Shown piece after piece: positions 1 to 16,261 of a stretch of DNA of 30,993 bases. The notes beneath the pieces were generated by a model that was given only the letters and a program-made list of their open reading frames with translations, ran no database searches and was not told the origin of the DNA. Each line of letters begins with the position of its first letter. The first letter of the stretch is position 1. Source of the stretch: a virus; IMG/VR virus record IMGVR_UViG_3300024259_000110, positions 1 through 30,993 of that record. One strand, written 5' to 3'. Both the position numbers and the translations under genes were made by a program.

Positions 1-127
1 AACCCAAGACTGTGACTGTGGTGCTTGCATCAATGACCATTTCACCATAATAGGATTGTGCCCCTGTGACATTCAGTGTTCCACCAACTGTCAGGTCACC
101 ATCAAAGCGAACATCACCTGCATCAAC
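1..127. repeat. Terminal direct repeat R1, left copy (127 bp)
   Basis: Bases 1-127 are identical to 28790-28916. The first mismatch is at base 128 (g here, a at 28917), and the two copies diverge fully after base 139. The repeat lies inside the C-terminal coding part of the two fibre genes and keeps the same reading frame in both. An exact 127-base match at a contig end is what a de Bruijn assembler leaves when k = 127 and the graph branches at a repeat. I read it as an assembly junction, not a biological terminal repeat. Confidence 0.9.
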
Positions 128-2473
128 GAAGATTGAGTATGGTCCATTTGCGGCAACTTCAGTTCCTGTTGGTGCGCCATTTATAAACAGTGTTGCAAGA
201 TTGGTTACATCGGCACCACCATCATTTACAACTGGCGGGAATAAAACAAGTCCACCAACTGAAGCATGGGTTCCACTGGTGAAGGTTGTAATGGTTTGAG
301 AATCTATTTGGAGTCCTGCCATCCTTTGATTTAGCGCACCAGTAAATGTTCTTGCTCCAATATATTGGGTTTTGTCAGTTGTTGGAGCAAGACCAATCCC
401 AACTGTATTATCTAACCTTACTCCACTTGTTCCACCACTTAGGGTGATTAGGCCGTTTGCGGTTGGTGCAAGTTCTAACTTTGTAGCACCATTGGCAACA
501 AAGGTCATTGTCTCCGTTGACCTGTTCACATAGATATTATTATTTGAACCAATTAAATCATGTGAAAATGTTAGTTGTGGATTAGCGGATGTTGAAGCTA
601 AATCAATATCTATATTCCCACCAAATGTTGAGCTTGCATCATTGGCTATTGTTAGGGCAGAAGTGGTGTTGATTGGGTTCCCTGCTGTGGGTGTCCCTGT
701 GTCAACTTGGAAGATATGTGAACCATCAACCTGAACATATTTGCTTGCTTCATCTGTTCTGATATATTCCCACCTATTATCTGTGTCATCATAATAAGTA
801 TTTTGGGAAAGGTTGATTGACTGACTGACTGCATCAACTGAACCACTTGCAACTGCACCATATTTGCCAACACGAAAAACATTAAAGATTCCATCCCACG
901 CTTCAGGAGTTACACCAAGACCGAAGTTGCCACTCTCATCTAAAAGCAGGGAAGTTGCACCATCTGCCCTTGAGGACATATCAATTGTTGAACCTGCTAC
1001 CGAACCACCTCTTAGATATAACCTGCCTGCATTACCATCTTCATTTCCTGCAAGGGTTATAAATGCACCCCTTGTAATTGATGCCCCTCCACCACCAGCG
1101 ATTGATATTGAATGGTTATCAGAAGCGTCTGCTGTCCCTGCATTAATTGAAGCGTTATCAGTCACAACTTCAATATTCCCATCAACAAACAAATCAGTCC
1201 CATCACTATGACTACCTGCATAGTTCAGGACAGTTGCAGAAGTGACAGTTCCATCATTGGCATTGCCACTGACATCCATCCAGAACCCACTGCTGATTGC
1301 ATAGTTGGGGAAGTCTGCCACAACACCTGACTTGTAGATATACAGATCATCAATGACACAAGCATCACTTGTGGCTAAGTCTGTTCTAAATTCGATATAT
1401 AAGTCTGTTGATGTTGCCACAAATTCAAGATCAGTCAGGGCATTTGCTGTGTTGAAAGTCCCATAATCAGAACCACCACTTGTAGTCCCAATCATCACCC
1501 TTGAATCAGTCCCTGTGAATGACAAGCCTGTGGTTGACACCTTGTATTCTTTGCCAAGAGTGACAACCCAATTTTGTCTAAGTCTTGCATATGCTGCACC
1601 TGCACCATCAGTATTAGTGATGGTCAGGATAGTTGAAGCAACTGTGAAGTCAGGTGTTGCAGTTGACAAGTTTGACCACCCTGTTGGTGGTGTGGTGCCT
1701 GTTGCACCTGTCCAATCAGTGTCTGAATCAACTGCTGTCTGTGATGCACCCACCCACTTGAAGGGTGTTGGGGCTGACAAATCTTTCACTTCCGAAGCTG
1801 TCAGTGCTGTGTTGAATAGTTGAACTTGTGAGAAGGAACCTAAGAAAGGTGATGCACCACCTGAAACATTATTTCCAATGACAAGGTTTGTTCCAACGTC
1901 TGAACGCCTTGTCCCAACTGGTGTCTGTGTTTCCACAACTGTCTGAAGGACTCCATTGAAATACACAGCAGGGTCATTTGCCACACTGCCTGCATTATAG
2001 ACAACTGTGATCCCTGTGTGTGTGTCTGTTGGGAACACCCCAACCACATCCCACACTGCATCTGTGGTTGTAAATTCATAAACAAGTCGAAAGTCTGCAA
2101 ATCCTGCTGATTCATTTCTGAACGATATAGAATAACTCCCTGCTGATGCACCACGCTTGTCTGCAAGTCTTGGTTCTGAAGCTATTTGTGAACTATTAAG
2201 ATATAATTCAGTATAGAAGGAACCACCACCATCAAAGATATTTTGATATTCACTTGCATCTGTGACAATGACTTCATCATTCACACCATCAAAGAAATAT
2301 GCTTGACCATCAGACATCATGTTCACAGTGGTCTGATCATTCAGCAGATGGGATCCAAGTGGGTTGATGTCACCCAAGATCTTTGCTTGCATGGGTGTCT
2401 GTGCATAGTCATAGTTCCATTGTCCAAAGACAAGGGAAGCAATTGTCAACAATAAAAGAATTCTTTTAGTCAT
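1..2473 (-). CDS. Fibre/adhesin with LamG-like domain, copy A (3' end beyond the window)
   Basis: An open frame runs without a stop from ATG at 2473 to base 1 (824 codons plus one base). It lacks only its C-terminus. Joined through repeat R1 to 28428-28789 it would make 944 residues in frame. Residues 1-17 are a Sec-type signal peptide ending FGQ. Residues ~55-230 look like a LamG/concanavalin-A lectin fold (FFDGVNDEVIVTD ... FNTALTASEVKDLS). A second beta-rich domain follows, then a long variable region with GLITLSGG and LDNTVGIG motifs common in phage fibres. The start follows the 142-aa gene by 2 bases, with GGTGGGATGATT before ATG. It is a diverged relative of the gene at 28428-30713. Roughly 100-1300 has many CpGs, unlike the rest of the genome. 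A role in host binding is inferred; the signal peptide leaves open a secreted adhesin instead of a virion fibre. Confidence 0.85.
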   Translation of the reverse strand, partial: MTKRILLLLTIASLVFGQWNYDYAQTPMQAKILGDINPLGSHLLNDQTTVNMMSDGQAYFFDGVNDEVIVTDASEYQNIFDGGGSFYTELYLNSSQIASEPRLADKRGASAGSYSISFRNESAGFADFRLVYEFTTTDAVWDVVGVFPTDTHTGITVVYNAGSVANDPAVYFNGVLQTVVETQTPVGTRRSDVGTNLVIGNNVSGGASPFLGSFSQVQLFNTALTASEVKDLSAPTPFKWVGASQTAVDSDTDWTGATGTTPPTGWSNLSTATPDFTVASTILTITNTDGAGAAYARLRQNWVVTLGKEYKVSTTGLSFTGTDSRVMIGTTSGGSDYGTFNTANALTDLEFVATSTDLYIEFRTDLATSDACVIDDLYIYKSGVVADFPNYAISSGFWMDVSGNANDGTVTSATVLNYAGSHSDGTDLFVDGNIEVVTDNASINAGTADASDNHSISIAGGGGASITRGAFITLAGNEDGNAGRLYLRGGSVAGSTIDMSSRADGATSLLLDESGNFGLGVTPEAWDGIFNVFRVGKYGAVASGSVDAVSQSINLSQNTYYDDTDNRWEYIRTDEASKYVQVDGSHIFQVDTGTPTAGNPINTTSALTIANDASSTFGGNIDIDLASTSANPQLTFSHDLIGSNNNIYVNRSTETMTFVANGATKLELAPTANGLITLSGGTSGVRLDNTVGIGLAPTTDKTQYIGARTFTGALNQRMAGLQIDSQTITTFTSGTHASVGGLVLFPPVVNDGGADVTNLATLFINGAPTGTEVAANGPYSIFVDAGDVRFDGDLTVGGTLNVTGAQSYYGEMVIDASTTVTVLG

Positions 2474-2475
2474 AA

Positions 2476-2904
2476 TCATCCCACCTTCCAGTTGGTTGCA
2501 TCATATGCATCAAAGCGAATCTTTGCCCCTGGTGGAACTGTGATTGCTGTGTCAACACCTGCACCACAATCATCCCCTGATGCAGGGAAGATCTGCAAGT
2601 TTGCTGCACCATTATTGATCACCACCTGAACTGCACCTGCAGCAGCAGACATCAGTGTCACCACATCACCTGCATTTGCACATGTTGATATTTCATTGAT
2701 GATCTTGGTCAATGCTTGTTGACCTTGTGATTGTGTGATTGAAGCAGTCAGTCCTGCTGCAACCGATTGATAAAACATTCCTGAAAGTGTCAGGTCAACC
2801 AGACTTGATGTTCCTGAAAGCAGAACCCTGATTGCAACATCACCTGCAGCATCTTCCACAAATTTTTGATATTCTCTGTCCTGGATTGAATATGGAAGTG
2901 TCAT
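2476..2904 (-). CDS. Small virion-type protein preceding fibre A (142 aa)
   Basis: The 142-residue protein has a helical N-terminal half (residues 1-85) and a beta-rich C-terminal half with VVINNGAANLQIFPASGDD and IRFDAYDATNWKVG. That second pattern recurs in small phage structural proteins, where it forms a compact beta domain; this is family-level recognition, not a named match. It overlaps the upstream 66-aa gene by ATGA and ends 2 bases before the fibre start, so the two are probably translated together. A near-identical second copy starts beyond the right edge and ends at 30717, again directly before a fibre. The constant pairing suggests a fibre partner, base or chaperone. Function is inferred from context. 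Confidence 0.75.
   Translation of the reverse strand: MTLPYSIQDREYQKFVEDAAGDVAIRVLLSGTSSLVDLTLSGMFYQSVAAGLTASITQSQGQQALTKIINEISTCANAGDVVTLMSAAAGAVQVVINNGAANLQIFPASGDDCGAGVDTAITVPPGAKIRFDAYDATNWKVG
2626..2752. repeat. Direct repeat R2, internal copy (127 bp)
   Basis: These 127 bases are identical to 30867-30993, the right end of the window. The base before the match differs (c at 2625, t at 30866). The repeat sits inside the 142-aa gene in both copies with no indel (constant offset 28241). Like R1, its exact length points to an assembly graph with k = 127. Confidence 0.9.
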
Positions 2905-3101
2905 GATGTCACCACACCTTTCACTGGTTTGTTCACTGTTCCACTGTCCTTGGATGATTCCATCTGCATCCTGGACAATCTTTTCCCTGTCACTGAATCA
3001 ACAGGAGTTGTCCCACCACCTGCAATCTTGATTTCCATCAACAAACCAAAGGCTGCAGTTGTGGGATCCACACCAAAGTTTTCACTGACCATGTTTGACA
3101 T
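2901..3101 (-). CDS. Hypothetical protein, 66 aa
   Basis: A 66-residue protein of no family I recognise. The middle is Gly/Thr-rich (AGGGTTPVDSVTG) and the C-terminus is polar. AAGGAAAG lies upstream of ATG at 3101; a second in-frame ATG at 3092 is possible. Its stop overlaps the start of the 142-aa gene (ATGA), so it is coupled to the 142-aa/fibre pair. It lies just downstream of a hairpin at 3126-3147 that separates it from the capsid block. Codon use matches the rest of the genome (no CpG), which supports it being a real gene. Confidence 0.65.
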   Translation of the reverse strand: MSNMVSENFGVDPTTAAFGLLMEIKIAGGGTTPVDSVTGKRLSRMQMESSKDSGTVNKPVKGVVTS

Positions 3102-3125
3102 GTTTGCTTTCCTTCAGTTTGTGAA

Positions 3126-3147
3126 GCAGGGGAATTGGATCCCCTGC
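3126..3147 (-). promoter_or_regulatory. Hairpin between head block and fibre block
   Basis: GCAGGGGA (3126-3133) and TCCCCTGC (3140-3147) form a perfect 8-bp stem with a 6-base loop. It lies in the only sizeable gap between the 68-aa gene and the fibre-linked genes. On the minus strand it is followed by TTCACAAAC, not a T-tract, so it is not a classical intrinsic terminator. It could act as a partial terminator or as an RNA-processing or stability element that sets the ratio of capsid to fibre messages. Confidence 0.4.
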
Positions 3148-3164
3148 ATCAATTCAATTCACTG

Positions 3165-3371
3165 CTATTTTGCAGCAGCTTTCTTCTTTGGATAACCAAT
3201 TTTGAATTCACGTTCTATGATAAGATCTTTCAATCTCCATGCAGGAACCAGTGCAGGTTCACCATCTGCCCTGGTGCATTCAATCTTGTCATCTGCATCA
3301 AAGGTGTGTGTCTTCCCACCTGTCTTGATGACCACTGGTGCAGCAATTTGTTCAGCTTTATTTTGTGCCAT
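3165..3371 (-). CDS. Hypothetical protein downstream of capsid, 68 aa
   Basis: A 68-residue protein with a beta-type N-terminal half (PVVIKTGGKTHTFDADDKIE) and a basic tail (PKKKAAAK). I do not recognise the family. It is the first gene after the major capsid gene, a position that in tailed phages often holds a decoration or head-completion protein, but the sequence does not prove this. The start at 3371 has GAAAGAAG upstream. The 80-base gap to the capsid stop holds no gene that I can support. Confidence 0.65.
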   Translation of the reverse strand: MAQNKAEQIAAPVVIKTGGKTHTFDADDKIECTRADGEPALVPAWRLKDLIIEREFKIGYPKKKAAAK

Positions 3372-3451
3372 GTTTCACCACTTCTTTCTTTCAATGTAGT
3401 CAGGACACCAGGCATGTGGGAAACACAACCTGATGCCCCAACCAAGTTCAA

Positions 3452-4315
3452 TCAGTCAGTGTTGCAAGCAAAGTAGACACCCCATGTGTCCACCAGTTCA
3501 ATCTGTTTCCATCTGCCTGTTGCAACAATTTCTTTTCCACGCAAGGAAGCATTGGGTTCTTCTTCAACATCCATCAGATCCTTGGTGTGCAATCCAATTG
3601 CATTCCTTGACCAGATCATATTGGCTGCCACATCTGATGCACCCACTGCTTCTGAAATCTCATTTGAAATCAGTGCAGGCATTCCAAACTGTGTGTCAAC
3701 CATCCCCATTTCAATCCATTTCTGTGCAACAGATCCACTGTTGACTGAAGTGGTGTTTGCAAGCAAGGATCTTAGACCCTTTGCACCATAATAGGACTTT
3801 GGTGACAATGCTGCAGCAAGATCATTCAAGTTGCCAGAAGCAGCTTTGATCTGTCTGATTGCATCATACCAGTGGTCAATTGTCATTGTGACTGCAGCAC
3901 CACACACTGTCTGTGTGAAACCAGAAGCAAGACCAACAATGTCATCTTCCAGTTTTGCCAACATTGCAGAAGCAAACAATGTGCTGATTTCACCAATCAC
4001 ATCATCCCTTGAAGACTGCACTGCAAGCTTGGTTGCAACTGCCATGATCACATGTTCTTCAACAGTTGCTGCTGTTGCAGCATTTGTGATCTGTTTGTTT
4101 GTTGAATGGTCAGTTCCTTCTGCAACCTGTGCAACATCTGCACTGGTGACTGCACCATATATGGGAAAGTCGTAGGTCTTTCCAGGTAACCCAAGTGTGT
4201 CAACATGTCTGACCACTTCCAAAAGTCCTGCATTGTCCTGCAGAAGCATCAGGGACTCACCCTGAATGTCATCCACTAACCCTGCTAAACTGGTTGATGT
4301 TGATTCATTAGCCAT
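3452..4315 (-). CDS. Major capsid protein (HK97-type fold expected)
   Basis: A 287-residue protein directly after the scaffold gene, where tailed phages place the major capsid protein. The sequence fits a compact HK97-fold shell protein with no long N-terminal delta domain: a helical N-terminus (VDDIQGESLMLLQDN), a glycine-rich turn before FPIYGAV, a long spine-helix region (residues ~85-140, with DDVIGEISTLFASAMLAKLED), and a C-terminal part with WKQIELVDTWGVYF typical of the last strands. The start at 4315 has a strong GAAAGGAT Shine-Dalgarno 7 bases upstream, fitting a highly expressed gene. No protease gene is visible, and the separate scaffold suggests assembly without a fused delta domain. 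Identity rests on position and fold-like pattern. Confidence 0.85.
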   Translation of the reverse strand: MANESTSTSLAGLVDDIQGESLMLLQDNAGLLEVVRHVDTLGLPGKTYDFPIYGAVTSADVAQVAEGTDHSTNKQITNAATAATVEEHVIMAVATKLAVQSSRDDVIGEISTLFASAMLAKLEDDIVGLASGFTQTVCGAAVTMTIDHWYDAIRQIKAASGNLNDLAAALSPKSYYGAKGLRSLLANTTSVNSGSVAQKWIEMGMVDTQFGMPALISNEISEAVGASDVAANMIWSRNAIGLHTKDLMDVEEEPNASLRGKEIVATGRWKQIELVDTWGVYFACNTD

Positions 4316-4355
4316 GATTTATCCTTTCAAAGATGTTCATGTGCAGTCCTGTGGA

Positions 4356-4964
4356 TCATCCCAATCTTCTTCTTGTGTTGGGATAAAGCTTTCTGTATAG
4401 ATCCCTGTTCAACCTTGCAAGATTGTTTTTGGATCCATATTTCTTCAGTGCAGCTTGTTCATTCACATCCACATTCCTTCCACCAGGATGACTGTCATCA
4501 GGTGCAGGATCTGCTGTTTGTTTTCCAATTGTCTGTGCAACAGTCTGAAGTTGTTCAGTTGGGAATTCTGCATATGGTGCAGCAGCATCATCACCCAACT
4601 TGTCTGCCAGGGTTGCAAGTGCAGCATCCCTGATCCCTTGTTCCAGTTTTGCATATTTCTTTGCAACTGGTTCAAGTGCAGCAAGTTTCTGTGTCAATGC
4701 TTCATTCACCTTTGACAGTTCACCATCTTCTTCAAGTTTCTTCAGTCTGTCTTTTTCATCCTGTTCAGTCTTTGCAAGAAGCAGATCTTCTGCTTTCTTC
4801 TTTGCATCATTGACTTCTTTGAATCTGGAATATGGAACAGTGTCCTGTGACTGATCTTTTGGATCCTTCACTTCTTCAGTTGTGGTTGTGGTTTCATCAC
4901 CACCACCACCACCTTGTTCTTCATCCTTGTTGAAGTGCATGAACAGTCTTTTGTCTTTCATCAT
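4356..4964 (-). CDS. Capsid scaffolding protein
   Basis: A 202-residue, highly charged protein with the usual scaffold layout: a low-complexity acidic start (runs of Gly and Thr at residues ~18-28), then VPYSRFKEVNDAKKKAE followed by a long predicted coiled coil (to about residue 120), and a polar C-terminus with a basic end (YPNTRRRLG) that may contact the capsid. It lies directly before the major capsid gene. It starts at 4964 by overlap with the stop of the preceding gene (AAATGATG), with AAAAGGGG upstream; the next codon is also ATG. The order scaffold then capsid, the Pro-rich hinge and the charge pattern make this call fairly safe. Confidence 0.8.
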   Translation of the reverse strand: MMKDKRLFMHFNKDEEQGGGGGDETTTTTEEVKDPKDQSQDTVPYSRFKEVNDAKKKAEDLLLAKTEQDEKDRLKKLEEDGELSKVNEALTQKLAALEPVAKKYAKLEQGIRDAALATLADKLGDDAAAPYAEFPTEQLQTVAQTIGKQTADPAPDDSHPGGRNVDVNEQAALKKYGSKNNLARLNRDLYRKLYPNTRRRLG

Positions 4965-5674
4965 TTGACCCCTTTTGTGGGTGGTTCAGCAATGTCACAG
5001 GGAAGCAGACTTGCATCTGAAACCTTGAAGACTTGCTGATCAGGAAAGTTGTTGATTGTTTCCAATGCTGCTGCAAGACACCTTGACTTTCCTGGTTGCA
5101 AGGATAGTGATGCAGCACCATTCACAGGTCTTTTCTTTTTTACATGTGCAGTCATGAATTCCTGTGCAATGGTCTTGTCATAGTTCATTCCTTTTGGGAA
5201 CTGAATTGTCTGAATATCAAGTCCAACAGTGAACACCTTTTCATATCCCATGTGAAGTGCAAACCACAATGTGAACATTCCTGATTGTCCGTTTGTTGGA
5301 TAGTTGTTGAATTCTGGTGCAGGGTTGGGAAGCAGTTTGTCATATTCACCATTGAACATGAACACCCCTGCTGCTTGTTCTTCTGGTGTAAAGTGATAGT
5401 GCCTGTGATAGTGTGAAGTTGCAATGACAACCTTCCCAGGATGTTTGACAATTTCCTGTTGTGTCCTTGGACTTCTTTCCAATGCACATGCTGCAATTGC
5501 ACCATATTTCAAAGTGTGAACTGTGATGATGTCACCATCAAAGTTTTCATAGTCATTCCAGATGAATGTGCTTGGTGCAGGTGGATGTGTTGGATGATTC
5601 AGATCAATGCATTGCTGCAGATCCAGATCTGTTCTTCCAATGATCAGACACTGCTTTGAAGTTCTTTGGATCAA
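4961..5674 (-). CDS. Glycosyltransferase-like (DUF115/sialyltransferase-type Rossmann) protein
   Basis: A 237-residue protein with a Rossmann-type core. Residues 128-153 read NGQSGMFTLWFALHMGYEKV then FTVGLDI. This resembles the SG..A...A..LG...I.L.GxD motif of DUF115/MAF-flagellin and family-42-type sialyltransferase-like enzymes. The N-terminus (CLIIGRTDLDLQQ) could be the first strand of the fold. The start is TTG at 5674, overlapping the TGA of the 52-aa gene (TTGA). It sits inside the head-assembly operon between the virion morphogenesis genes and the scaffold, an unusual place for such an enzyme. It might modify a virion or host-surface glycan. Family assignment is moderate and substrate unknown; a structural protein with a convergent motif remains possible. 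Confidence 0.5.
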   Translation of the reverse strand: MIQRTSKQCLIIGRTDLDLQQCIDLNHPTHPPAPSTFIWNDYENFDGDIITVHTLKYGAIAACALERSPRTQQEIVKHPGKVVIATSHYHRHYHFTPEEQAAGVFMFNGEYDKLLPNPAPEFNNYPTNGQSGMFTLWFALHMGYEKVFTVGLDIQTIQFPKGMNYDKTIAQEFMTAHVKKKRPVNGAASLSLQPGKSRCLAAALETINNFPDQQVFKVSDASLLPCDIAEPPTKGVK

Positions 5675-5829
5675 GTTGCCTGTCCTGAAACAAATGCAAT
5701 CATTTCACCATGATCAGTGAAGACTTGTTCTTCAGTCTTGGTGTGAATCACTTGGTCAGTCTTGGGTCTTGACCACACAGTGACCAACCAACCACCACCA
5801 ACCTTCTTGATTGTGATTTCTTTGTCCAT
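5671..5829 (-). CDS. Hypothetical protein, 52 aa
   Basis: A short open frame begins MDKEITIKKVGGGWLVTVW and ends FVSGQAT (52 aa). The start ATG (5829) overlaps the preceding stop as TGATG, with GGGAAAGAAG upstream. The stop overlaps the TTG start of the next gene. Coupling at both ends, and the same CpG-free codon choice, support a real gene. The pattern of short beta strands around GGGW suggests a small all-beta fold. No function can be assigned. Confidence 0.7.
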   Translation of the reverse strand: MDKEITIKKVGGGWLVTVWSRPKTDQVIHTKTEEQVFTDHGEMIAFVSGQAT

Positions 5830-6308
5830 CACTTCTTTCCCATTTCCCAGGTCATCTTGTTTCCATCAGCATACTTGTTGATGTTCAACTTGACCTGTCT
5901 GTTCATTCTGCCCATTGCCATTGCAAGGACAGTCTTTGAAACTGGTTTTCCTGGAAGGGTCACAGGTCTTCCCATGTCAATGTTCCCCTGGATCTTTGCT
6001 GATTCAACTGCATTCCATCCAATCCTGACCATCTTCCTGGTTGCCCTTACAACCTGAAGGTCTTGCATCATATCAAATGTCAAGACAAGGTTTGCCCTTG
6101 CACTTGCTTCAGATTGTCTTTTGAATTTCCCTGCTGCTTTCCTTTGTGCATAGGTTTCAGACAAGGGTGGAAACTTGTGACCATGAACTGATTGACCCTT
6201 GACAGTTGTTTCATCCCTGATCATGTCAGACATCAGGTTCCCCAACTTGTTGAAGAAAGGTTTCCCAAGGTTCACAACCTTCTGACTGTCAACAATTTGC
6301 ATTGCCAT
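5829..6308 (-). CDS. Virion morphogenesis / tail completion protein (Mu gpG-like)
   Basis: The protein (159 aa from ATG 6308) contains KFPPLSETYAQRKAAGK near residue 45 and LVLTFDMMQDLQV followed by VRIGWN. This is the arrangement of the phage virion morphogenesis (Mu gpG) family, in which a 'pLs..T...K' segment precedes 'L..tG.L..si' and a beta strand. I prefer ATG 6308 because GCAGGTG lies 7 bases upstream; a TTG at 6314 overlapping the MuF stop (TTGA) would add two residues. The gene follows the MuF-like gene directly, the usual partner order in Mu-like head modules. Likely role: head or tail completion. Assignment is moderate. Confidence 0.6.
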   Translation of the reverse strand: MAMQIVDSQKVVNLGKPFFNKLGNLMSDMIRDETTVKGQSVHGHKFPPLSETYAQRKAAGKFKRQSEASARANLVLTFDMMQDLQVVRATRKMVRIGWNAVESAKIQGNIDMGRPVTLPGKPVSKTVLAMAMGRMNRQVKLNINKYADGNKMTWEMGKK

Positions 6309-6310
6309 GA

Positions 6311-7096
6311 TCAAGCACCTGCAGTCTGTTGGAAGGTTGGGACTTCAGCAGGGTTGATCCCCTGTGCTGCAAGTCTTGCTGTTGCATCTGACTGATCACT
6401 GAACTTGTCAGACAGTTCTGTCTTGACTGCAAACCTGTGTCTGCAGTTGAACCCACCACCATCCAGGAATGCACCTGGAAATCTTTCATCAATTTCTTCC
6501 CTGGTCATTGCACCTGCTGCCAACATTGCAAGACAGATGGGTCTGGTCTTCCCATCACTGACACCAATATATTGGAACAGTGTGTCTTCTGGCATGTCTT
6601 CTGTCATCACTGCATTCACTGACCTGCTGAAGGTCTTCATTGCTGTTTCAACAAGGGTCTTGATCTGTCCCCTGGACAGTGACTTCCCTGCAGCTTCTTT
6701 CAGGTGGTTCACCAGTTTGTTTCTTGGGACACCTGCAAGGGTTGCTTTCACCATTTCTGACTTCAGTGTTGATGCCATGTGTGGAACATACTGCATGAAG
6801 GTTGCTTGATTCACATTGATCAATGCCTGAACTGTTCCAGGTGTAATGGGTGCAACTGCTTCAAAGTTCTGCAGGATCTGGATCTGTGATGCTTCCAGTG
6901 CAGCAAGATCATTGTTGAATCCAAAGGTGTCTGTGATCATTGCTTCAAGTGGAAGTTGGTTGATGAATTCAACTGTCTGTGCTGCTGTTGCTGCATCCAG
7001 GTTGTAGTTCTGCACCATCCACACACCAAATGCTTCAGTGATTCTGTCCACTGCTTTGACCATGTTTGCTGCTGCTGTGGTTGGGATGTCAGGCAT
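6311..7096 (-). CDS. MuF-like / SPP1 gp7-like minor head protein
   Basis: A 261-residue protein carrying the hallmark C-terminal motif of the phage Mu F / SPP1 gp7 family: YIGVSDGKTRPICLAM (residues 176-191, Cys188) followed by GGGFNCRHRF (213-222, Cys218 and His220). The N-terminal 150 residues are mostly helical. Proteins of this family sit with the portal inside the capsid and assist assembly or DNA delivery. Here the gene follows portal and a zinc-ribbon protein, and overlaps the latter by 8 bases. No toxin or ADP-ribosyltransferase extension is seen; the protein has little beyond the core. The family call is strong on motif and neighbourhood. Confidence 0.8.
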   Translation of the reverse strand: MPDIPTTAAANMVKAVDRITEAFGVWMVQNYNLDAATAAQTVEFINQLPLEAMITDTFGFNNDLAALEASQIQILQNFEAVAPITPGTVQALINVNQATFMQYVPHMASTLKSEMVKATLAGVPRNKLVNHLKEAAGKSLSRGQIKTLVETAMKTFSRSVNAVMTEDMPEDTLFQYIGVSDGKTRPICLAMLAAGAMTREEIDERFPGAFLDGGGFNCRHRFAVKTELSDKFSDQSDATARLAAQGINPAEVPTFQQTAGA

Positions 7097-7478
7097 GTGA
7101 CTTGATGAATCCTTTCAGGACAACTGCAGTGTGTTCACCACACTTGCACTTCTTCCTGTTTATTAGTCTTCCAGATCCTGACACCTTGGGTGTCTTGTAA
7201 AGTGTTCCAGATCCACAATTAATGCAGAAGACTTTCAGACCTGTCTTGTTCTGCACAAATGTTCCTGGTGCCCTTCTTCCTGGAAGTGCTGCAAATGCTT
7301 TGATTGCAGAATCCTGTTTCTGATAATTATGAGAATGAATGGATCCCTGCTTTTCATTGAATTCCTTTTCAGCAGATTGCATTGCAGCAACCTTCCTGGT
7401 TCTGAACTTTTCATTCCTTTCATGGAGTGAAACAAGGTGGTCATCAATGTTGACCCTTTCAATGATTACATTTGCCAT
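7089..7478 (-). CDS. Zinc-ribbon protein between portal and MuF, 129 aa
   Basis: The N-terminal 70 residues are charged and helical. The C-terminal part holds a probable zinc ribbon, VFCINCGSG then KKCKCGEHT (CxxC ... CxC). The ATG at 7478 follows the portal stop by one base, and the gene overlaps the MuF-like gene, so all three are coupled. A zinc-ribbon protein at this place is not a standard head gene. It may bind DNA or the portal during packaging, or be a small capsid component. No family is recognised; the reading is from motif and position. Confidence 0.65.
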   Translation of the reverse strand: MANVIIERVNIDDHLVSLHERNEKFRTRKVAAMQSAEKEFNEKQGSIHSHNYQKQDSAIKAFAALPGRRAPGTFVQNKTGLKVFCINCGSGTLYKTPKVSGSGRLINRKKCKCGEHTAVVLKGFIKSHA

Positions 7479-7479
7479 A

Positions 7480-8883
7480 TTAAGACAGATCCCCTTCAGG
7501 TGTTTGATTCAGTGCAAGATCCAGTGCAGTGGGTGGAACCCCTGCACCTTGAAGTTCTTGGGTCTTTGCAAGATTGTCTTTGATCTTCTGTTCAGCTTGT
7601 TCAATGGGTGTCACTGGTGGATCAACTTCATCATCACCAGGGAATGCATCAGGGTTGCTGTCAAGCAGCACCTGTGCAGAAGTTGTCTGACCTGATTGGA
7701 TCTTCCAATCTGTCTGGTCACGTTTTTCTTGTTCTGTCAGGATCTGCATTGATTCTTGAAAGTCCACTTCCATTCCATCAGGCAGGGTCTTCTTGAAATG
7801 ATATTGCATTTGTGCTTGTCTGACCTTGAACATTGCAGCATGGATCATGCGCCAATTTTCCACATCACCACTTCTGTTGTCCATCAGTTCCTGATTCCTG
7901 ACCTTCAGTGCAATCCCTGATTCAGTTGCAACACCCTGGACAAACTTGCTGTCCAACCCATAGTTCTGTGCAATTGATTGATAGATGAATTGAACACCAG
8001 TGATTGTGTCAGGGACATGACTGCTGAATCCAACTGTCCCCATCTTCACCCCTGGTGGAAGTTCAGTGAACCTGTCCTGGTTGATGATGACTTCACCTGC
8101 ATTCTTGACACCTTCAAGGAAGGGATAGTCAAAGTTCTGGAAGCGAATATTTGCATTCATTTCAGTCAAAGCAAGATTGATTCCAAGGTTGGATTCAATG
8201 ATGTCCTTCACTGGTTCATAGTCCATATATGATGATTCAGGTGGTGCCCCTTCTGAAAAGCAGAACACACCAGGGATCAGACCATATGGATTCACCCCTT
8301 CAAGCTTTTCATCTTCAAGGATTTCACCACCTTTGATATATTTGAATTGTTCTGTGGGTGTCCACATGACCCAAGTTTCTGCATCAGTGTTGGTCACTTC
8401 AGAAGATGCTTGGATTGGATAAGTCACACCAATTGGGTTCATTGGATCTGCACCAAAGATGGGAACAAAGTCCCTGATGATTTCAAGTTGAAGTTGATCA
8501 TCCCTGAATGTTGACTTCAAGAAGATCCCATTCAGCAGGTTCAACATTCTTTCTGCCCTTGCAAACTTCACCACATCCATCTTGGTTGCAGCATTGTATG
8601 CAGTGACCACATCCTGCTTGGTGTCTTCAGGGAACAACACAATGGGTCTGACCTTGTGAACCTGACTGATCCTTTTGATGATCCTTTTGGTGATGTTGTT
8701 GTTTGCATAGGAAATCTTCTTCATCATTTCTGGATCAAAGTAATCAAGGGTTTCACCTTCAGTCTGCCCTTCATAGTATTCAACTGCCCTGTTGATCACA
8801 TCAAGTCTTGCAAGGGATGTTGCCTGTTGTGCTTCCATCTGTGCATTGTTCATCATTTCAAGTGCTTGTTCAGACAATGCCAT
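7480..8883 (-). CDS. Portal protein
   Basis: A 467-residue protein placed between the large terminase and the MuF-like gene, with the length typical of portal proteins. The N-terminus (LARLDVINRAVEYYEGQ ... YANNNITKRIIKRIS) matches the start of SPP1/gp6-like portals, where helices precede the 'stem' region. The middle contains GLIPGVFCFSEGAPPESS, and the C-terminal part is helical, charged and proline-rich (a crown/barrel-like end, VDPPVTPIEQAEQKIKD). The start ATG 8883 is preceded by GGGGTG. Portals form the dodecameric ring through which terminase pumps DNA. It has its own upstream gap with a candidate promoter (8949-8977). Confidence 0.8.
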   Translation of the reverse strand: MALSEQALEMMNNAQMEAQQATSLARLDVINRAVEYYEGQTEGETLDYFDPEMMKKISYANNNITKRIIKRISQVHKVRPIVLFPEDTKQDVVTAYNAATKMDVVKFARAERMLNLLNGIFLKSTFRDDQLQLEIIRDFVPIFGADPMNPIGVTYPIQASSEVTNTDAETWVMWTPTEQFKYIKGGEILEDEKLEGVNPYGLIPGVFCFSEGAPPESSYMDYEPVKDIIESNLGINLALTEMNANIRFQNFDYPFLEGVKNAGEVIINQDRFTELPPGVKMGTVGFSSHVPDTITGVQFIYQSIAQNYGLDSKFVQGVATESGIALKVRNQELMDNRSGDVENWRMIHAAMFKVRQAQMQYHFKKTLPDGMEVDFQESMQILTEQEKRDQTDWKIQSGQTTSAQVLLDSNPDAFPGDDEVDPPVTPIEQAEQKIKDNLAKTQELQGAGVPPTALDLALNQTPEGDLS

Positions 8884-8948
8884 TGTTCACACCCCAATTG
8901 TGTTGATTGTATATAGTTGCTTTTTGTGGTTTCTTTTGGTCATCAGAT

Positions 8949-8977
8949 AAACTAAAAGAATGAATAATCCTTGACAA
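8949..8977 (-). promoter_or_regulatory. Candidate promoter for the portal-head operon, with palindrome at -35
   Basis: In the 154-base gap between large terminase and portal, the minus strand shows TTGTCA (8972-8977), a 17-base spacer and TAGTTT (8949-8954). The -35 lies inside a perfect 13-base palindrome, TCCTTGACAAGGA (8968-8980), a possible operator. The -10 is a poor match to TATAAT. On the plus strand the same palindrome offers TTGACA, but no plus-strand gene follows. This is the longest non-coding gap in the packaging-head block, which favours a control site. Confidence 0.4.
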
Positions 8978-9019
8978 GGACTAATTGATCATTATGGGAA
9001 GACCCTGATTTCTGGTGCT

Positions 9020-9037
9020 TTTAGAATCTATTCTGAA
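9020..9037. promoter_or_regulatory. 18-bp palindrome, copy 1 (end of large terminase)
   Basis: TTTAGAAT-CT-ATTCTGAA, 7 of 8 arm positions complementary. It sits immediately after the terminase stop codon. It matches three other sites at 13924, 17697 and 18538 that share the form TTYAGAAT-NN-ATTCTRAA and also lie at gene boundaries. Probably a protein-binding site. Confidence 0.55.
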
Positions 9038-10585
9038 TCACTTCACACCATATCTTGACACACCACCATATTCCTGTTCAAGGATTTCATCACCATGTCT
9101 GGTCACTTGTCCATATCTGAAGTAATCACTTGAATGTTCCACCCCATCCTTCAGGATCCCATCACCTTTCCTTCTGGTCTGTTCCAGTGACATGACCAGT
9201 GTTGGAACCTTGGGTTGATAGAAGTGAACCCTGTGGATCCCATCACTTGTCCAATCTGACAATCTCATTGCACAGATTTCCAGGGACAGTCTGTGACTTG
9301 GGTTGGATTGGTTTGTCATGTCCACCACTTCCCAATTCAGATCCTGTGCCATTCTTTTTATGATGTCATAGTCTGATTCATATCCCCTTGTGTCACCAAA
9401 CTTTCCACTGAAATCCCCATATAGATAGATGACTTTGTTCTTGTGTGCCCTGTATGTGTCCAGGAATTCTGCCATGTGTGCAGCAGTGGTTGTTCTTTCT
9501 TCATCAACCACTTCATCAAAATAGTAGTCATCACCCTTCACTTCATGTGACAAACCCCAACACATTGGGATGATGTTGAAGTCACATTCAATCTGAATGG
9601 GAAGTCCTTGTTCATATGGGTCTTCATCCAGACCCTGCACCTTGATGTCAAAGTCAGGGAATGCTTTCCCCTTGACTGCTGCTGCATAGTTGATGTCAAG
9701 GTTGCTTGCAACATCAGAAGCAGATCTTGTCCTGACCTGTTCATCATACCATGCAGAATCCTTCAGTGGGTGAAGTTCCCAATGCAGGGTGATCATTCTG
9801 ATCTGACCCTGTTCTTGGTTTCTCAATTTGTAGAAGTGATTATTCTTTCCCCATGCAGAACCAACTGCAATCTTGCAGTCAGTGGTGTCACTTGCTGATT
9901 CCCATGCAGCTTCATCAGTGTGTTCCCACTTTGGAAATTCATCAAACAGTGCAGCTTTTGCCCTTCCTGATGTTCCAAAGTTCACATTGTTTGCTTCACC
10001 ACTGATGGTGCATTCAGTGACAGGGTTGATCAATCTGTTGTAATTGTCAAAGGGTGACTGATGTCCCAATTCAAATCCCTTGGGAAGCATCCAGGAAGGA
10101 AGTCTTTTCAACACATATCTTGCTTTCTGCATCAGGGTGGACATGTCACCAAGTGCATCCACATATTGCTGCTTCCTTGACCCAAGCAGGAAGTCATTCC
10201 CTGCACCCTGGAACAACCAGAACCACAAGAAGACTGCAATGACCAACCATGATGCACCCATGTCCCTGGACTTTTCAACAAGCAGGTTGTTCCCCTGTTC
10301 AATTGCATCCTTCACTTCATTGATGAATTCATCCTGAAAGTCAAAGGTGATGAAGGGCATGTGTGGACTGTCCCACCCAAGTTCCTTGAACTTGTCACCC
10401 TTTGCATCATATGTCCAACAGAAGCAGTTGATCCAGAAGATTGGATCTGCAGCACATGCAGCAAGGATCAATGCCCTGACTTGCAGATCCACACCACCCT
10501 GTGTGTGAAGGTTGTATCTTAGCAGACCATTGGTGTCATTGTCCTTTGGTAAATTTTGCAAGAAGGACTGCAATGGGATCTTCAC
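9038..10585 (-). CDS. terL: Terminase large subunit
   Basis: A 515-residue ATPase-nuclease that packages DNA into the prohead. The ATPase shows a Walker-A-like motif EKSRDMGASW (residues 104-113), Walker B AALFDEF (211-217, with catalytic Glu after Asp) and a coupling segment VGSAWGKNNHF (~241-251). The nuclease half has acidic residues at ECDFNII (Asp335) and YLYGDFSGK (Asp391), as in RNase-H-fold terminase nucleases. The listed start is GTG at 10585, which overlaps the small terminase gene by 50 bases and has GAAAGG very close; a TTG slightly downstream is possible. There is no in-frame ATG before the Walker A motif. It lies between the small terminase and portal genes. Confidence 0.9.
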   Translation of the reverse strand: MKIPLQSFLQNLPKDNDTNGLLRYNLHTQGGVDLQVRALILAACAADPIFWINCFCWTYDAKGDKFKELGWDSPHMPFITFDFQDEFINEVKDAIEQGNNLLVEKSRDMGASWLVIAVFLWFWLFQGAGNDFLLGSRKQQYVDALGDMSTLMQKARYVLKRLPSWMLPKGFELGHQSPFDNYNRLINPVTECTISGEANNVNFGTSGRAKAALFDEFPKWEHTDEAAWESASDTTDCKIAVGSAWGKNNHFYKLRNQEQGQIRMITLHWELHPLKDSAWYDEQVRTRSASDVASNLDINYAAAVKGKAFPDFDIKVQGLDEDPYEQGLPIQIECDFNIIPMCWGLSHEVKGDDYYFDEVVDEERTTTAAHMAEFLDTYRAHKNKVIYLYGDFSGKFGDTRGYESDYDIIKRMAQDLNWEVVDMTNQSNPSHRLSLEICAMRLSDWTSDGIHRVHFYQPKVPTLVMSLEQTRRKGDGILKDGVEHSSDYFRYGQVTRHGDEILEQEYGGVSRYGVK

Positions 10586-11045
10586 CTTTCTTCAGTGTTG
10601 GAAGTTCTTCAGGTGTCAGGTTTGCATTGACATTCATCTGCATTGCCCTTCCAACTTCATGTTCAATCAAAGTCTTCTGTGCAGTGTTGTCACCTTCCAA
10701 TGCTTGCTTCACCATCTGGACTGCAATCAATTGCCTGATGTTTCTTTGTGACCCAACTGCATTGATCTTGGTTTCCTTCCTGGACAGTGTTCCACTTTCA
10801 TCAGTGATGTTCATGACAACATTGATTGTCTTTGCTTCCATGATTTCATTGATGATGTCAGTCCAGGTGTTCCCCTTCTTTGCCCTTCCTTTTGGATTGC
10901 CTGATTGACCCTTCACCCATGATGCAGGTGTTGGTTTTCTTTTCCTGGTTGGTTTCTTCTTGGGTTTGCTGATCAATTGCTGTTTTGCAGCAACCTGTTT
11001 GGACTGTGCTTTTGGGGTGGTCTTTTGTGTCTTCCTTGTTGTCAT
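10536..11045 (-). CDS. Terminase small subunit-like protein (DUF5681-type motif)
   Basis: A 169-residue protein with a very basic N-terminus (many Lys, Arg and Thr to residue 40) followed by WVKGQSGNPKGRAKKG (residues 43-58). SGNPKGR is the hallmark of DUF5681-type proteins that often precede large terminases. The C-terminal half is helical (NIRQLIAVQMVKQALEGDN) and suits oligomerisation. It overlaps the large terminase by about 50 bases, supporting a terminase partner. The basic tail should bind DNA at the packaging site. The start at 11045 has CAGGAAAAATGAT upstream. The 146-base gap on its 5' side holds only a 12-base palindrome (11136-11147, CATTCATGAATG) and a 21-codon frame I do not trust. 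Confidence 0.65.
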   Translation of the reverse strand: MTTRKTQKTTPKAQSKQVAAKQQLISKPKKKPTRKRKPTPASWVKGQSGNPKGRAKKGNTWTDIINEIMEAKTINVVMNITDESGTLSRKETKINAVGSQRNIRQLIAVQMVKQALEGDNTAQKTLIEHEVGRAMQMNVNANLTPEELPTLKKGEDPIAVLLAKFTKGQ

Positions 11046-11191
11046 ATCATTTTTCCTGTTTTGTCAGTGCAACAAGTTAGAACATGAACACATGGGGATG
11101 CAAGAAAGAAGAACCCCATCCAACTGGACAGGGTTCATTCATGAATGCACTGGATAATTTATGCAGGACAACAGTGCATGTCAGAACATAA

Positions 11192-11455
11192 TCACCACCC
11201 CTTTCTGATTGTCAAGGCAACCCCTGACTGTGGTTGTTCAAATCCAGGGAACAATGCTGTCAGATCTGCATCCATCTTCCTGGACATTTCATTCATCATT
11301 AATTTTGCAAGAATCTGTTCAGGTGTCCCTTCAATGATTGGTGGTGTCTTCCCATAGTTCACTGCAACCAGTTCCCCAACAGGTTCCTTCTTCAGTGCAG
11401 CAAGTGGTGCAAGCAGTGGTGACAGCAGCAGTCCAATGAATTCAGATCTTTGCAT
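11192..11455 (-). CDS. Hypothetical protein, 87 aa
   Basis: The 87-residue product has a hydrophobic N-terminal stretch (FIGLLLSPLLAPLAALKK, residues 6-23) that could be a signal anchor or an amphipathic helix, then a soluble part with TPEQILAKLMMNEMSRKMDADL. I do not recognise it. A good Shine-Dalgarno (GGAAGGAAG) precedes ATG 11455, and its 5' end overlaps the 70-aa gene by 14 bases. It is the last gene before the small terminase. Confidence 0.6.
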   Translation of the reverse strand: MQRSEFIGLLLSPLLAPLAALKKEPVGELVAVNYGKTPPIIEGTPEQILAKLMMNEMSRKMDADLTALFPGFEQPQSGVALTIRKGW

Positions 11456-11654
11456 TGGTTGCTTCCTTCCTGGATTGGGTCAACTTCCAAAGCTTTCTGC
11501 AGGTGTGTGTGCAGAAGTGATGTTGATCTTCACCCTTCCCATTCACCTTCCATCCTGCTTGTCTTGCTTGTCTTTCAACCCTTCTGCTGTGGACAGGAAA
11601 CTGTTCAGTGAATCCACACCTGTCACAGGTGACCACATGGATCCTGGTCTTCAT
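11442..11654 (-). CDS. Small zinc-finger protein, 70 aa
   Basis: A short basic protein with two cysteine pairs, CDRCGF (residues 10-15) and FCTHTCRK (47-54), spaced like a treble-clef or C4 zinc finger. The segment between is Arg-rich (VHSRRVERQARQAGWK), fitting DNA or RNA binding. ATG 11654 follows the stop of the 37-aa gene by one base (TGACATG). Function unknown; perhaps a transcription or packaging accessory factor. Confidence 0.65.
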   Translation of the reverse strand: MKTRIHVVTCDRCGFTEQFPVHSRRVERQARQAGWKVNGKGEDQHHFCTHTCRKLWKLTQSRKEATNAKI

Positions 11655-11655
11655 G

Positions 11656-11769
11656 TCAATCCCTTCCCTTGATTAGCTTCAGCAAGATCTGCAACCCTGC
11701 ACCTTGTCCAAGCTTGGTGGACAACAGTGCAATTGCTTCCCTGATCTTCCTGACTTCAGCTTTGGTCAT
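11656..11769 (-). CDS. Very small protein, 37 aa
   Basis: ATG 11769 overlaps the preceding stop as ATGA, and its TGA (11656-11658) lies one base before the next ATG. The product starts MTKAEVRKIREAIALL and ends KLIKGRD, a predicted amphipathic helix with a Gly-Gly-rich turn. It fills exactly the gap between two credible genes with coupling on both sides, which is the main evidence. Codon choice is the same CpG-free set as its neighbours. No function is known. Confidence 0.6.
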   Translation of the reverse strand: MTKAEVRKIREAIALLSTKLGQGAGLQILLKLIKGRD

Positions 11770-12029
11770 TTGTCTTCCCTGCAGGATCTGCACAGTTCTT
11801 GCTTGTTCCCATGTGCATCAATGAAGGTCTTGATTCCCCTGTTCTTCTTGCATCCTGGACACTTGATGATTGACTTGGATCCAGGCATTGTTCCATTTCT
11901 TAAAAGTGGCATGTCTTCCTTCTTTCCAAATATTCTTTCATAGTTCTTGTCATATTGCTTCTTGTTGACAGGTCTTGGTCTGTCACCCTTCCCTGCTTCA
12001 CCAACTGTCACAAAAGGGATCCATGACAT
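11766..12029 (-). CDS. GKGDRPRP-motif phage protein with C-terminal zinc ribbon, 87 aa
   Basis: The N-terminal half carries GKGDRPRPVNKKQYDKNYERIFG. This follows a conserved small-phage-protein pattern (GKGDkpRPv...yd.n...IF) known from many phages, without a known role. The C-terminal half adds CPGCKKNRG and CRSCREDK, a CxxC...CxxC zinc ribbon. I chose ATG 12029 (product begins MSWIPFVTV) because GCAGGATGTC precedes it; an ATG at 12038 adds three residues. It overlaps the end of the CxxCH protein gene by 22 bases. The combination with a zinc ribbon is worth noting. Confidence 0.65.
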   Translation of the reverse strand: MSWIPFVTVGEAGKGDRPRPVNKKQYDKNYERIFGKKEDMPLLRNGTMPGSKSIIKCPGCKKNRGIKTFIDAHGNKQELCRSCREDK

Positions 12030-12205
12030 CCTGCACATGGACTGTCTTCACCATGACAGTTCAGACAAGGTGTGGGGAAGTCTGTTGATGTCTTGACAAG
12101 TGTTGTGTCCCTGGTGCATTGGATTGTGTCAACTGAACATCCAACTGGTTTGTCATCTGTGCAGCAGACCAGGAAGATTGCTGCAATCATAATCATTCTT
12201 TTCAT
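12008..12205 (-). CDS. Tiny exported protein with two CxxCH (haem c-like) motifs, 65 aa
   Basis: From ATG 12205 (GAAAGGAACTGAA upstream) the product has a signal peptide of about 14 residues, MKRMIMIAAIFLVC. It may end in a lipobox-like LVCC, though this is not canonical. The mature part has CLNCH (47-51) and CAGCHG (57-62) only six residues apart. CxxCH is the covalent haem-binding motif of c-type cytochromes, and export is what such proteins need. With about 50 mature residues it would be one of the smallest dihaem proteins, so a zinc site or disulfide-rich protein is an alternative. Two further Cys (23, 30) lie upstream. A longer start at 12229 lacks a good ribosome site. The neighbours are an HNH nuclease and a zinc-ribbon protein. 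Confidence 0.6.
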   Translation of the reverse strand: MKRMIMIAAIFLVCCTDDKPVGCSVDTIQCTRDTTLVKTSTDFPTPCLNCHGEDSPCAGCHGSLL

Positions 12206-12216
12206 TTCAGTTCCTT

Positions 12217-12519
12217 TCATAGTGGACAACCATATCCAAATGCATCTGTGATTGATTCATATAATCCAGTGACATCCCCTGCAATGATGAAGGGATCAAT
12301 GTTGTGGTCAATGAAGAACATGATCATCCCTTGCTTGTTGTCATGACATTCAGTGTGATGCTTCCAACAGATTGGGATCACATTCATTGGATCCTTCCCA
12401 CCTTGTGACTTCAGCTTCACATGATGTGGGTGGATCCCAGGTGTCTTGCACCCTGGAATGCAGCAGTCAAGTGATGACACCCATCTTCTGAAAGCAGGGT
12501 CATCCTGTTCAATTCTCAT
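12217..12519 (-). CDS. HNH endonuclease
   Basis: A 100-residue HNH nuclease. The motif is HPHHVK (residues 30-35), then GGKDPMNVIPIC (40-51, Asn46) and HHTECH (54-59), with Cys20, Cys24, Cys51 and nearby His as probable structural zinc ligands. It is the compact single-domain type found next to terminase genes in many siphophages, where it helps cut concatemers during packaging. Here it lies about 1.2 kb before the small terminase in the same operon. ATG 12519 overlaps the preceding stop (ATGA). The 12205-12219 spacing to the next gene is only a few bases. Confidence 0.85.
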   Translation of the reverse strand: MRIEQDDPAFRRWVSSLDCCIPGCKTPGIHPHHVKLKSQGGKDPMNVIPICWKHHTECHDNKQGMIMFFIDHNIDPFIIAGDVTGLYESITDAFGYGCPL

Positions 12520-12989
12520 TGCAACCCATCCTGCTTCCTGTCCACTTCAGATCCAAACAAAGAACCCTGACCAGGATTGGGTGCAAGTCTCCATGCATGA
12601 ACCTTGTCACCTTCATCACTGTTCCACATTGCTGTGTCTGACTTCTGCAGCTTGGGTTGGTTCCATAATTTCTGACCCTGTCTGGTCACTGTCATTGAAG
12701 TATAGAGACAATCACAATCCTGCTTGGTCACATACTTCTTGCACTTTGTGCAGAACCATGCAGACAGGTTTGACAATGCCCTTGAAATGGACTGATCCTT
12801 CAGTCTTTTTCCATGTCTTCTGGTGAATTCCCTGTTCAGTGCATCCCTTGTCCACCATTCAACTGCATTCTGCAGGTGGATCATGATGTCAACAATCTTG
12901 TCCTGTTGGGATCCTGCAGATGCATCCTTCTTCTTCAGTGCATCACCTGACAGGTTGGTCGTGTTGTGGAAGTTCAATGCTTGGGTCAT
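12516..12989 (-). CDS. Putative DNA-binding protein with zinc cluster, 157 aa
   Basis: Residues ~28-80 look like a winged-helix unit (IVDIMIHLQNAVEWWTRDAL ... SISRALSNLSAW), followed directly by CTKCKKYVTKQDCDC, a Cys-rich zinc site. The C-terminus is polar. I use ATG 12989 with AAGGGAAGGA at good spacing; a TTG at 12995 overlapping the preceding TGA would add two residues. The HTH-plus-zinc layout suggests a regulator or replication accessory, but no family is certain. It is followed by the HNH gene with ATGA overlap. Confidence 0.6.
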   Translation of the reverse strand: MTQALNFHNTTNLSGDALKKKDASAGSQQDKIVDIMIHLQNAVEWWTRDALNREFTRRHGKRLKDQSISRALSNLSAWFCTKCKKYVTKQDCDCLYTSMTVTRQGQKLWNQPKLQKSDTAMWNSDEGDKVHAWRLAPNPGQGSLFGSEVDRKQDGLQ

Positions 12990-12991
12990 GG

Positions 12992-13354
12992 TCAATCCTT
13001 CCCTTGTTCAGTGAACAACTTCAGGGTGTGTTCAGGTGCCCACATTGCCCTGTCTTGCAGTCTGACCTGATACATGGTTTCCCTGTTCTTCTTGATGCTG
13101 ATTTCAATCACCCTGTGTGACAGTGGGTTCAAGTGCTGAATCAGGACAACCCTGTCTTCAATGTCAAAGACATGTTTCCCACATCTGTTCCCCTTCATCA
13201 ATTCAATGACAGAATGCTGTTTGATGATGTTTTCTGTGGACTTGGAAAGCTGCCCTTGCAGATCCTTCACCCTGTTGTTGGACTTCTGTAAGAAGACAAA
13301 CAAGACCACAATCACAATGAACATGATTGGGACTGCAATGAATTCAACTGTCAT
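12992..13354 (-). CDS. Membrane-anchored coiled-coil protein, 120 aa
   Basis: A single N-terminal transmembrane helix (residues ~4-22, FIAVPIMFIVIVVLFVFLQ) is followed by a short coiled coil (NNRVKDLQGQLSKSTENIIK) and a soluble C-terminal domain with FDIEDRVVLIQHLNPLSHR and MYQVRLQDRAMWAPEH. The C-terminal part looks like a small beta domain. The ATG at 13354 overlaps the stop of the 56-aa gene. A Cys at ~58 is alone. Function unknown; a membrane protein in the early block might modify the cell envelope or exclude other phages. Confidence 0.6.
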   Translation of the reverse strand: MTVEFIAVPIMFIVIVVLFVFLQKSNNRVKDLQGQLSKSTENIIKQHSVIELMKGNRCGKHVFDIEDRVVLIQHLNPLSHRVIEISIKKNRETMYQVRLQDRAMWAPEHTLKLFTEQGKD

Positions 13355-13521
13355 GACTTGTCACCCCTTCCTGAAGGATCCAGAAACATCCTTGTCCTTT
13401 CTGCACAGTCTTCACATCTTGAAGCATGACCTGAAGCTGCAAGTGCTGCAGCACAGAAGAAACCAAACAATGAACCAACACCACCAATTGCAAACAATAC
13501 TGACCAATGCAGTTCAATCAT
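13351..13521 (-). CDS. Small membrane protein, 56 aa
   Basis: The product begins MIELHWSVLFAIGGVGSL and has one hydrophobic helix (residues 7-30), then CEDCAERTRMF with a CxxC pair. Start 13521 and stop 13351-13353 overlap both neighbours as ATGA, and the 13355-13517 gap is otherwise empty. Upstream GGGTGAAGAA serves as a weak ribosome site. The tight coupling and normal codon choice argue for a real gene. Function unknown. Confidence 0.65.
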   Translation of the reverse strand: MIELHWSVLFAIGGVGSLFGFFCAAALAASGHASRCEDCAERTRMFLDPSGRGDKS

Positions 13522-13727
13522 TTCTTCACCCTTTCATATTTCACTTTGTGGGTCTTCAGGATCTGGATGAAAGCATCCTTGAACTTGTTGGGAAGATCCT
13601 GGATGTGGGTGTTGCCATATTTCAATGAAGCATGATATGACACACCATTCCTGTTCAGGTGCTTCTGTGTGATTCCATAGACAATCAGGAATTCATTGAT
13701 GGTCTTGATTGGTTTGTCTTCATTCAT
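13518..13727 (-). CDS. Hypothetical protein, 69 aa
   Basis: A 69-residue basic protein predicted to be helical, with a possible helix-turn-helix-like core (INEFLIVYGITQKHLNRNGV). It overlaps its neighbours by ATGA on both sides. I cannot name the family. If it is an HTH protein it could be the regulator acting on the repeated palindromes, but that is speculation. Confidence 0.55.
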   Translation of the reverse strand: MNEDKPIKTINEFLIVYGITQKHLNRNGVSYHASLKYGNTHIQDLPNKFKDAFIQILKTHKVKYERVKK

Positions 13728-13900
13728 GCTTCTGCACCTTTCGATATTTCAGACAGTCTTTTTTCAAATCCTTTTTGATAGTCTGCACCCTTGACTTTGA
13801 AAAGCTTGTCCAGGTGAAGTCTTCCAGGGGATCTGTTCAGCAGTTTGATTGCAGCATCTGCATCAATCCACCCAAGTCTGAAGTGATAGTTTGTGTTCAT
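13724..13900 (-). CDS. Hypothetical protein, 58 aa
   Basis: The product starts MNTNYHFRLGWIDADAA and ends SEISKGAEA; it is mixed helical and basic. ATG 13900 has GAAAGGAAGATCACT upstream, the same site seen before other early genes, and the TGA overlaps the next ATG. It is the first gene after the candidate promoter and palindrome at 13924-13957, so it would head its own transcription unit. Function unknown. Confidence 0.65.
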   Translation of the reverse strand: MNTNYHFRLGWIDADAAIKLLNRSPGRLHLDKLFKVKGADYQKGFEKRLSEISKGAEA

Positions 13901-13923
13901 AGTGATCTTCCTTTCTTCCTTTG

Positions 13924-13957
13924 CTTAGAATATATTCTGAAACAGTGGTCAGATCAA
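13924..13957 (-). promoter_or_regulatory. Candidate promoter with 18-bp palindrome, copy 2
   Basis: The palindrome CTTAGAAT-AT-ATTCTGAA occupies 13924-13941. On the minus strand a -10 TATATT (13929-13934) lies inside it, 17 bases from TTGATC (13952-13957). The ribosome site and ATG of the 58-aa gene follow. A protein bound to the palindrome would block the -10. The -35 overlaps the last codons of the preceding gene. Confidence 0.5.
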
Positions 13958-14679: not shown

Positions 14680-14696
14680 CTTGACCTTCCTTTCCT

Positions 14697-14954: not shown

Positions 14955-14955
14955 G

Positions 14956-15663: not shown

Positions 15664-15837
15664 TGTGTTTCCTTTCCAATTGACTGACTGACTGAACCCC
15701 TTTGGGTGAAGTTCAGACAGGCAGACAATTGCAGCATATCTTGATTTTGATTTTGAAGCTGATTGTGTCTGTGGTTTTGACTTTGACTTTGACTTTGATT
15801 GGGATGCTTTATGCATACACCAATGCACATGCAGACA
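15664..15837. repeat. Non-coding gap with TCAAAG hexamer repeat and hairpin
   Basis: This 174-base gap holds no gene I trust. On the minus strand it has about four tandem AAAGTC hexamers, then two TCAAAA units, and nearer the methyltransferase a hairpin CTGAAC...GTTCAG (with CCC-AAA-GGG inside) and a CAGT tetranucleotide run. It may be a leader for the methyltransferase message, or just slipped-strand sequence. A frame through it encodes Ser/Lys repeats only because of the DNA repeat. Confidence 0.5.
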
Positions 15838-16221: not shown

Positions 16222-16261
16222 AATGATCTTCCTTTCAGTTGTGAATTATTATTTAAATATA

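Follow-up and report, generated by a model that had tools for sequence, protein, structure and literature searches.

Variation at host-recognition genes of otherwise conserved phages, in the form of metaviromic islands or flexible phage modules, is an already known phenomenon. Near-identical phages with co-present fibre variants have been published (PMC7468147; PMC3909814), the variants of cryoconite phages have been attributed to recombination (PMC7468147), and assembly trouble at metaviromic islands has also been described (PMC6487183). Here, we analyse IMG/VR record IMGVR_UViG_3300024259_000110 over its whole length (30,993 bp; hereafter, the window), in which two versions of a tail fibre gene, A and B, are found. 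We conclude, with a probability of about 92%, that they are two alleles of one host-recognition locus in a phage population. The initial annotation had favoured alleles at about 60%, and the increase comes from an exact tiling of assembly unitigs, from parts outside the variable region that occur as single copies, and from the presence of one fibre in each of two relatives (G001 and G002). On this reading, the seemingly linear genome with two fibre genes would be closed and would have one fibre gene, of which the population carries two alleles; it would then be wrong to count two fibres or to class the genome as incomplete.

Nearly all genes of the window lie on the minus strand. In reading direction, a 5'-truncated copy of a 142-aa gene (30993..30717; last 91 aa) precedes fibre B (30713..28428), which is complete at 761 aa and comprises a hydrophobic N-terminus, a Laminin_G_3-like segment, and a C1q-like C-terminal tip. 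A 26-kb backbone follows, then the complete gene of the 142-aa protein (2904..2476) and, directly downstream of and overlapping it (ATGA), fibre A (2479..1), an open frame of which 826 aa are seen, its C-terminal end being cut by the contig end. The fibre pair had been placed at 1-2473, which corresponds to fibre A only; both versions are indeed present, and the feature spans 1-2904 plus 28428-30993. The shared backbone unitig (2626..28916) is one path for both alleles and carries the capsid gene, a portal-size gene, the terminase, and tail genes. Backbone genes with recognisable matches are the major head protein (3452-4315), the terminase large subunit (9038-10585), the tape measure (21938-23557), a tail tube-like protein (24342-25352), and a primosomal-like protein (15838-16221). 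A methyltransferase gene (14956-15828; Pfam domain Methyltransf_23, E 5.7e-12) has no match found in G001 or G002.

With respect to the contig ends, we observe that both repeat an internal stretch exactly. The merge 127-mer (v2) lies at the left end (1..127) and again inside fibre B, just before the tip (28790..28916), where A and B merge, while the split 127-mer (v1) lies inside the complete 142-aa gene (2626..2752) and again at the right end, in the other 142-aa copy (30867..30993). Both terminal repeats measure exactly 127 bp, no longer and no shorter, and no other exact repeat in the record is as long. We read this length as the k-mer length of a SPAdes-type assembly, 127 being what we take to be the usual largest k of SPAdes. 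A k = 127 graph was built from two circles sharing 26 kb, one that closes the record via A (28,789 bp) and one that closes it via B (28,241 bp). The graph contains 2 branching k-mers and 3 unitigs (1-2752, 2626-28916, and 28790-30993), and these three unitigs (A, backbone, and B), overlapping by k bases, tile the record exactly, with no remainder. The proposal that the graph is a bubble, with R1 leading to A or B and both leading to R2, turns out to be right and exact. Furthermore, the N-terminus of the 142-aa protein and the fibre tip, both outside the bubble, occur once each in the record; parts outside the bubble are thus single and parts inside it double, as two alleles of one locus require. 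Literature searches found no published mention of the 127-bp end-repeat signature. Checking whether both contig ends repeat over exactly k bases is a simple test, by which alleles fused in this way could be recognised in other viral contigs.

The relatives point in the same direction. G001 (IMGVR 3300028883_000113; 29,314 bp) has an exact 127-bp end repeat, giving a closed circle of 29,187 bp, and is collinear with the record, with identical gene order. Between p66 and p101, the interval at which the record's two ends would join, it has only one fibre ORF, 573 aa long, and the first ~40 residues of this ORF match the 142-aa protein. The partial genome G002 (3300025669_000722) likewise has a single ORF between p66 and p101, of 998 aa, that consists of the whole 142-aa protein fused to the fibre.

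The next explanation to be weighed is a tandem duplication, in which one genome carries two pairs of 142-aa gene and fibre and the assembly dropped a junction of ~0.6 kb that comprised the tip of A and the beginning of the second 142-aa gene. It would account for one contig path containing both versions, and two more distant phages (G003 and G004) do have the 142-type domain twice within one ORF. It would also yield two 127-bp repeats if the junction repeats were ~127 bp long or trimmed by the assembler. We nevertheless consider it improbable, and alleles much likelier, because of the exact k = 127 tiling, the single-copy parts outside the bubble, and the one fibre gene in the relatives, where both the closed G001 and G002 have one pair at the locus. 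When tandem genomes with near-identical junctions (0 to 1% divergence) are modelled, they produce four branch points, not two, and repeat unitigs of 192 to 327 bases, although strong divergence of the junction reduces the repeats to ~129, at which point the graph test loses power. Under a duplication, the contig ends would also be expected to reach past 127 bp into the shared junction parts, an expectation that depends on assembler behaviour, and the genome size would be no less than 31.6 kb, whereas that of the closed relative is 29.2 kb. The record contains no second 142-aa N-terminus and no second tip, and so does not contain two complete copies of the pair. Programmed switching in one lineage, by an invertible or shuffling fibre cassette or a diversity-generating retroelement, can produce two fibre versions inside identical flanks but is very improbable here, given that the genes scanned include no match to a recombinase or a reverse transcriptase family, that inverted repeats are not strong (the best near the fibres being 15 to 35 nt at 71 to 93%, chance level by eye), and that the differences between A and B show a balanced rather than adenine-specific spectrum (59/103 involve A; all 12 types occur) and include large indels.

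A terminase scan of IMG/VR recovered a contig from another sample (L013; 3300022916) that is 99.93% identical to positions 4571-11695 (7.1 kb) and ends before the fibre; this identity indicates that the phage recurs. The backbone assembles as a single path, in which carriers of A and of B are not distinguishable. Four of the five differences between L013 and the record fall within 34 bp of a 467-aa gene (L013 3058-3091, corresponding to 8605-8638). This clustering resembles that of a 28-bp stretch in the 142-aa gene, and short-tract recombination is possible. When IMG/VR was scanned with fibre B, fibre A, the capsid, tail proteins, and an exact R2 DNA string, no near-identical contig spanning the fibre locus was recovered, in a search from which near-identical records may have been excluded. 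Prokaryote genomes searched with the terminase and capsid gave no relative, and the phage collection gave distant terminases only and no fibre relative. One open frame each in G003 (record of L005; 6623-7687) and G004 (record of L006; 709-1533) contains two copies of the 142-aa protein's C-terminal domain, and this domain may be a repeating fibre or baseplate building block.

Fibres A and B had been described as sharing their N-terminal, spacer, and C-terminal parts and differing in the middle. The N-terminal part, internal islands, and the end of A are indeed shared, but the description is too simple, since the middle consists of four variable segments separated by islands. The N-terminal parts are 67% identical at the amino acid level, the three internal islands 84 to 96%, and the last 46 aa of A (the pre-tip stretch) 100%, with 99% nucleotide identity, whereas the four variable segments between these conserved parts show 20 to 35% amino acid and 41 to 46% nucleotide identity, with large length differences. 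In the mosaic alignment, on the minus strand, conserved island 1 occupies 1733..1819 in A (LFNTALTASEVKDLSAPTPFKWVGASQTA) and 30015-30101 in B, island 2 occupies 1187..1330 and 29496-29639, and island 3 occupies 380..463 and 29199-29279. All 12 differences between the two copies of the 142-aa gene fall in one 28-bp cluster (2598..2625, minus strand; counterpart, 30839-30866), flanked by exact stretches of 118 and 127 bp. The shared C-terminal tip (28431..28793, minus strand) is present in a single copy in the record and is probably common to both alleles, allele A being visible only to its first 127 shared bases.

The reading of this gene as a receptor-binding (host-recognition) fibre is supported by a predicted C1q-like tip, a weak Laminin_G_3 match, and its location between capsid and tail genes. 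The model of the fibre B tip adopts a C1q/TNF-like fold with modest confidence (pLDDT 67.7), its best PDB match in Foldseek is a short tail fibre domain of cyanophage A-1(L) (8ke9; E 1.2e-4, 15% identity), and many of the viral matches are C1q or collagen-type proteins. The Laminin_G_3 match lies in the first variable segment of B (E 9.6e-5) and, at 23.0 bits, stays under the curated cut-off of 27.6. The whole fibres have no match in Pfam and PHROGs, and a full-length fibre structure prediction reached a pLDDT of 36.7, too low to use. Both fibre ORFs open with a hydrophobic, signal-peptide-like N-terminus (2425-2479, MTKRILLLLTIASLVFGQ; 30660-30713, MKRLLILSMLVTAGFGQ), which is unusual for a tail fibre; the relatives have, in its place, a fusion of the fibre to the N-terminus or the whole of the 142-aa protein.

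A more unusual observation than the fibre variants is the extreme word avoidance of this genome. In the backbone (2905-28427), CG occurs at 0.02 of expectation (0.8 per kb), TA at 0.18, CTC/GAG at 0.04 (28 versus 788 expected, both strands counted), and GCC/GGC at 0.23. The avoidance is present in all three codon phases as well as between genes, and it is visible in codon use, with 391 GAA versus 8 GAG and, for arginine, 260 AGA/AGG versus 8 CGN. G001 and G002 show the same avoidance in weaker form, whereas seven other loci are without it (CG ratios of 0.5 to 1.1). Candidate causes are restriction at very short words, DNA modification, and mutational bias. The fibre breaks the avoidance in all three genomes (the record, G001, and G002). 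In the window, this concerns the C-proximal stretches, made up of variable segments 3 and 4 plus island 3 on the minus strand, of A (128..1178; CG 15.2/kb versus 0.8/kb in the backbone, P = 1e-13) and of B (28917..29487; 19.3/kb versus 0.8/kb, P = 3e-11). Marker words reach 99 and 119 per kb in these two stretches but no more than 43 per kb in any 600-bp backbone block. CG is absent from both middle variable segments of B (29640-30014 and 30102-30515). Since the variable segments of the fibre are the main exception to the avoidance, they look imported, and we infer that the C-proximal stretches arrived recently and that different modules did so at different times. This contrast in word composition provides independent evidence of import at the receptor-binding locus for which a donor is not needed. 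A broader interpretation, to which we give even odds, is that a strong DNA-level pressure removed CG, CTC/GAG, and partly TA and GCC/GGC genome-wide, that the fibre locus alone is replenished, time and again, with foreign DNA not yet purged in this way, and that the density of forbidden words is a clock of how recently each receptor-binding module was imported.

Taken together, a probable origin of the alleles can be outlined. The phage would have a circularly closing genome of ~28 to 29 kb (circular or circularly permuted) with a single host-recognition locus, in which the 142-aa protein is followed by the tail fibre. The sample would have held at least two variants with nearly the same backbone and different fibre alleles, their co-occurrence being suggested by the presence of both versions in one assembly. 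A de Bruijn assembler would then have made a circle with a bubble, in which the alleles split at one 127-mer in the 142-aa gene and rejoin at one 127-mer before the tip, and would have written out the path B-backbone-A as a single linear contig, as the exact tiling indicates. The patchwork of A and B fits repeated recombination in conserved stretches, judging from the sequences, and the alleles may have arisen by homologous recombination at crossover sites in the 3' part of the 142-aa gene, the three internal islands, and the pre-tip stretch. The mosaic suggests that recombination swaps the modules of sugar-binding type between these sites and leaves the attachment part and the C1q-like tip in place. 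In both alleles, the C-proximal segments are the main carriers of the CG, TA, CTC/GAG, and GCC/GGC words that the backbone lacks, and their donor was therefore probably not a member of the word-avoiding lineage. The likely effect would be a population able to bind several receptor variants of the host.

The locus resembles described metaviromic islands in that it lies at the same place between conserved flanks, with exact 127-bp split and merge points and the neighbours p66 and p101 shared with relatives, and in that it appears to encode a host-recognition protein, as the predicted C1q-like tip, the weak Laminin_G_3 match, and its location suggest. The predicted tip fold matches known C1q/TNF-like receptor-binding tips, such as the short tail fibre domain of cyanophage A-1(L) (PDB 8ke9), despite low sequence identity. 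As in the metaviromic islands of marine phages (Mizuno et al. 2014, PMC3909814), a C1q-type host-recognition gene would diverge within a nearly identical backbone; there, however, the C1q domain or C-terminal tip is most variable, whereas in this record the variation affects the modules that precede the C1q-like tip, the tip itself being outside the bubble. The cryoconite phage pan-genomes (Bellas et al. 2020, PMC7468147) combine a near-identical core with homologous tail fibre/C1q receptor-binding variants in one metagenome, an arrangement that would also apply to this phage. In contrast to those flexible modules (PMC7468147), two variants are caught here by one assembled contig, and the imported segments are marked by a contrast in word composition.
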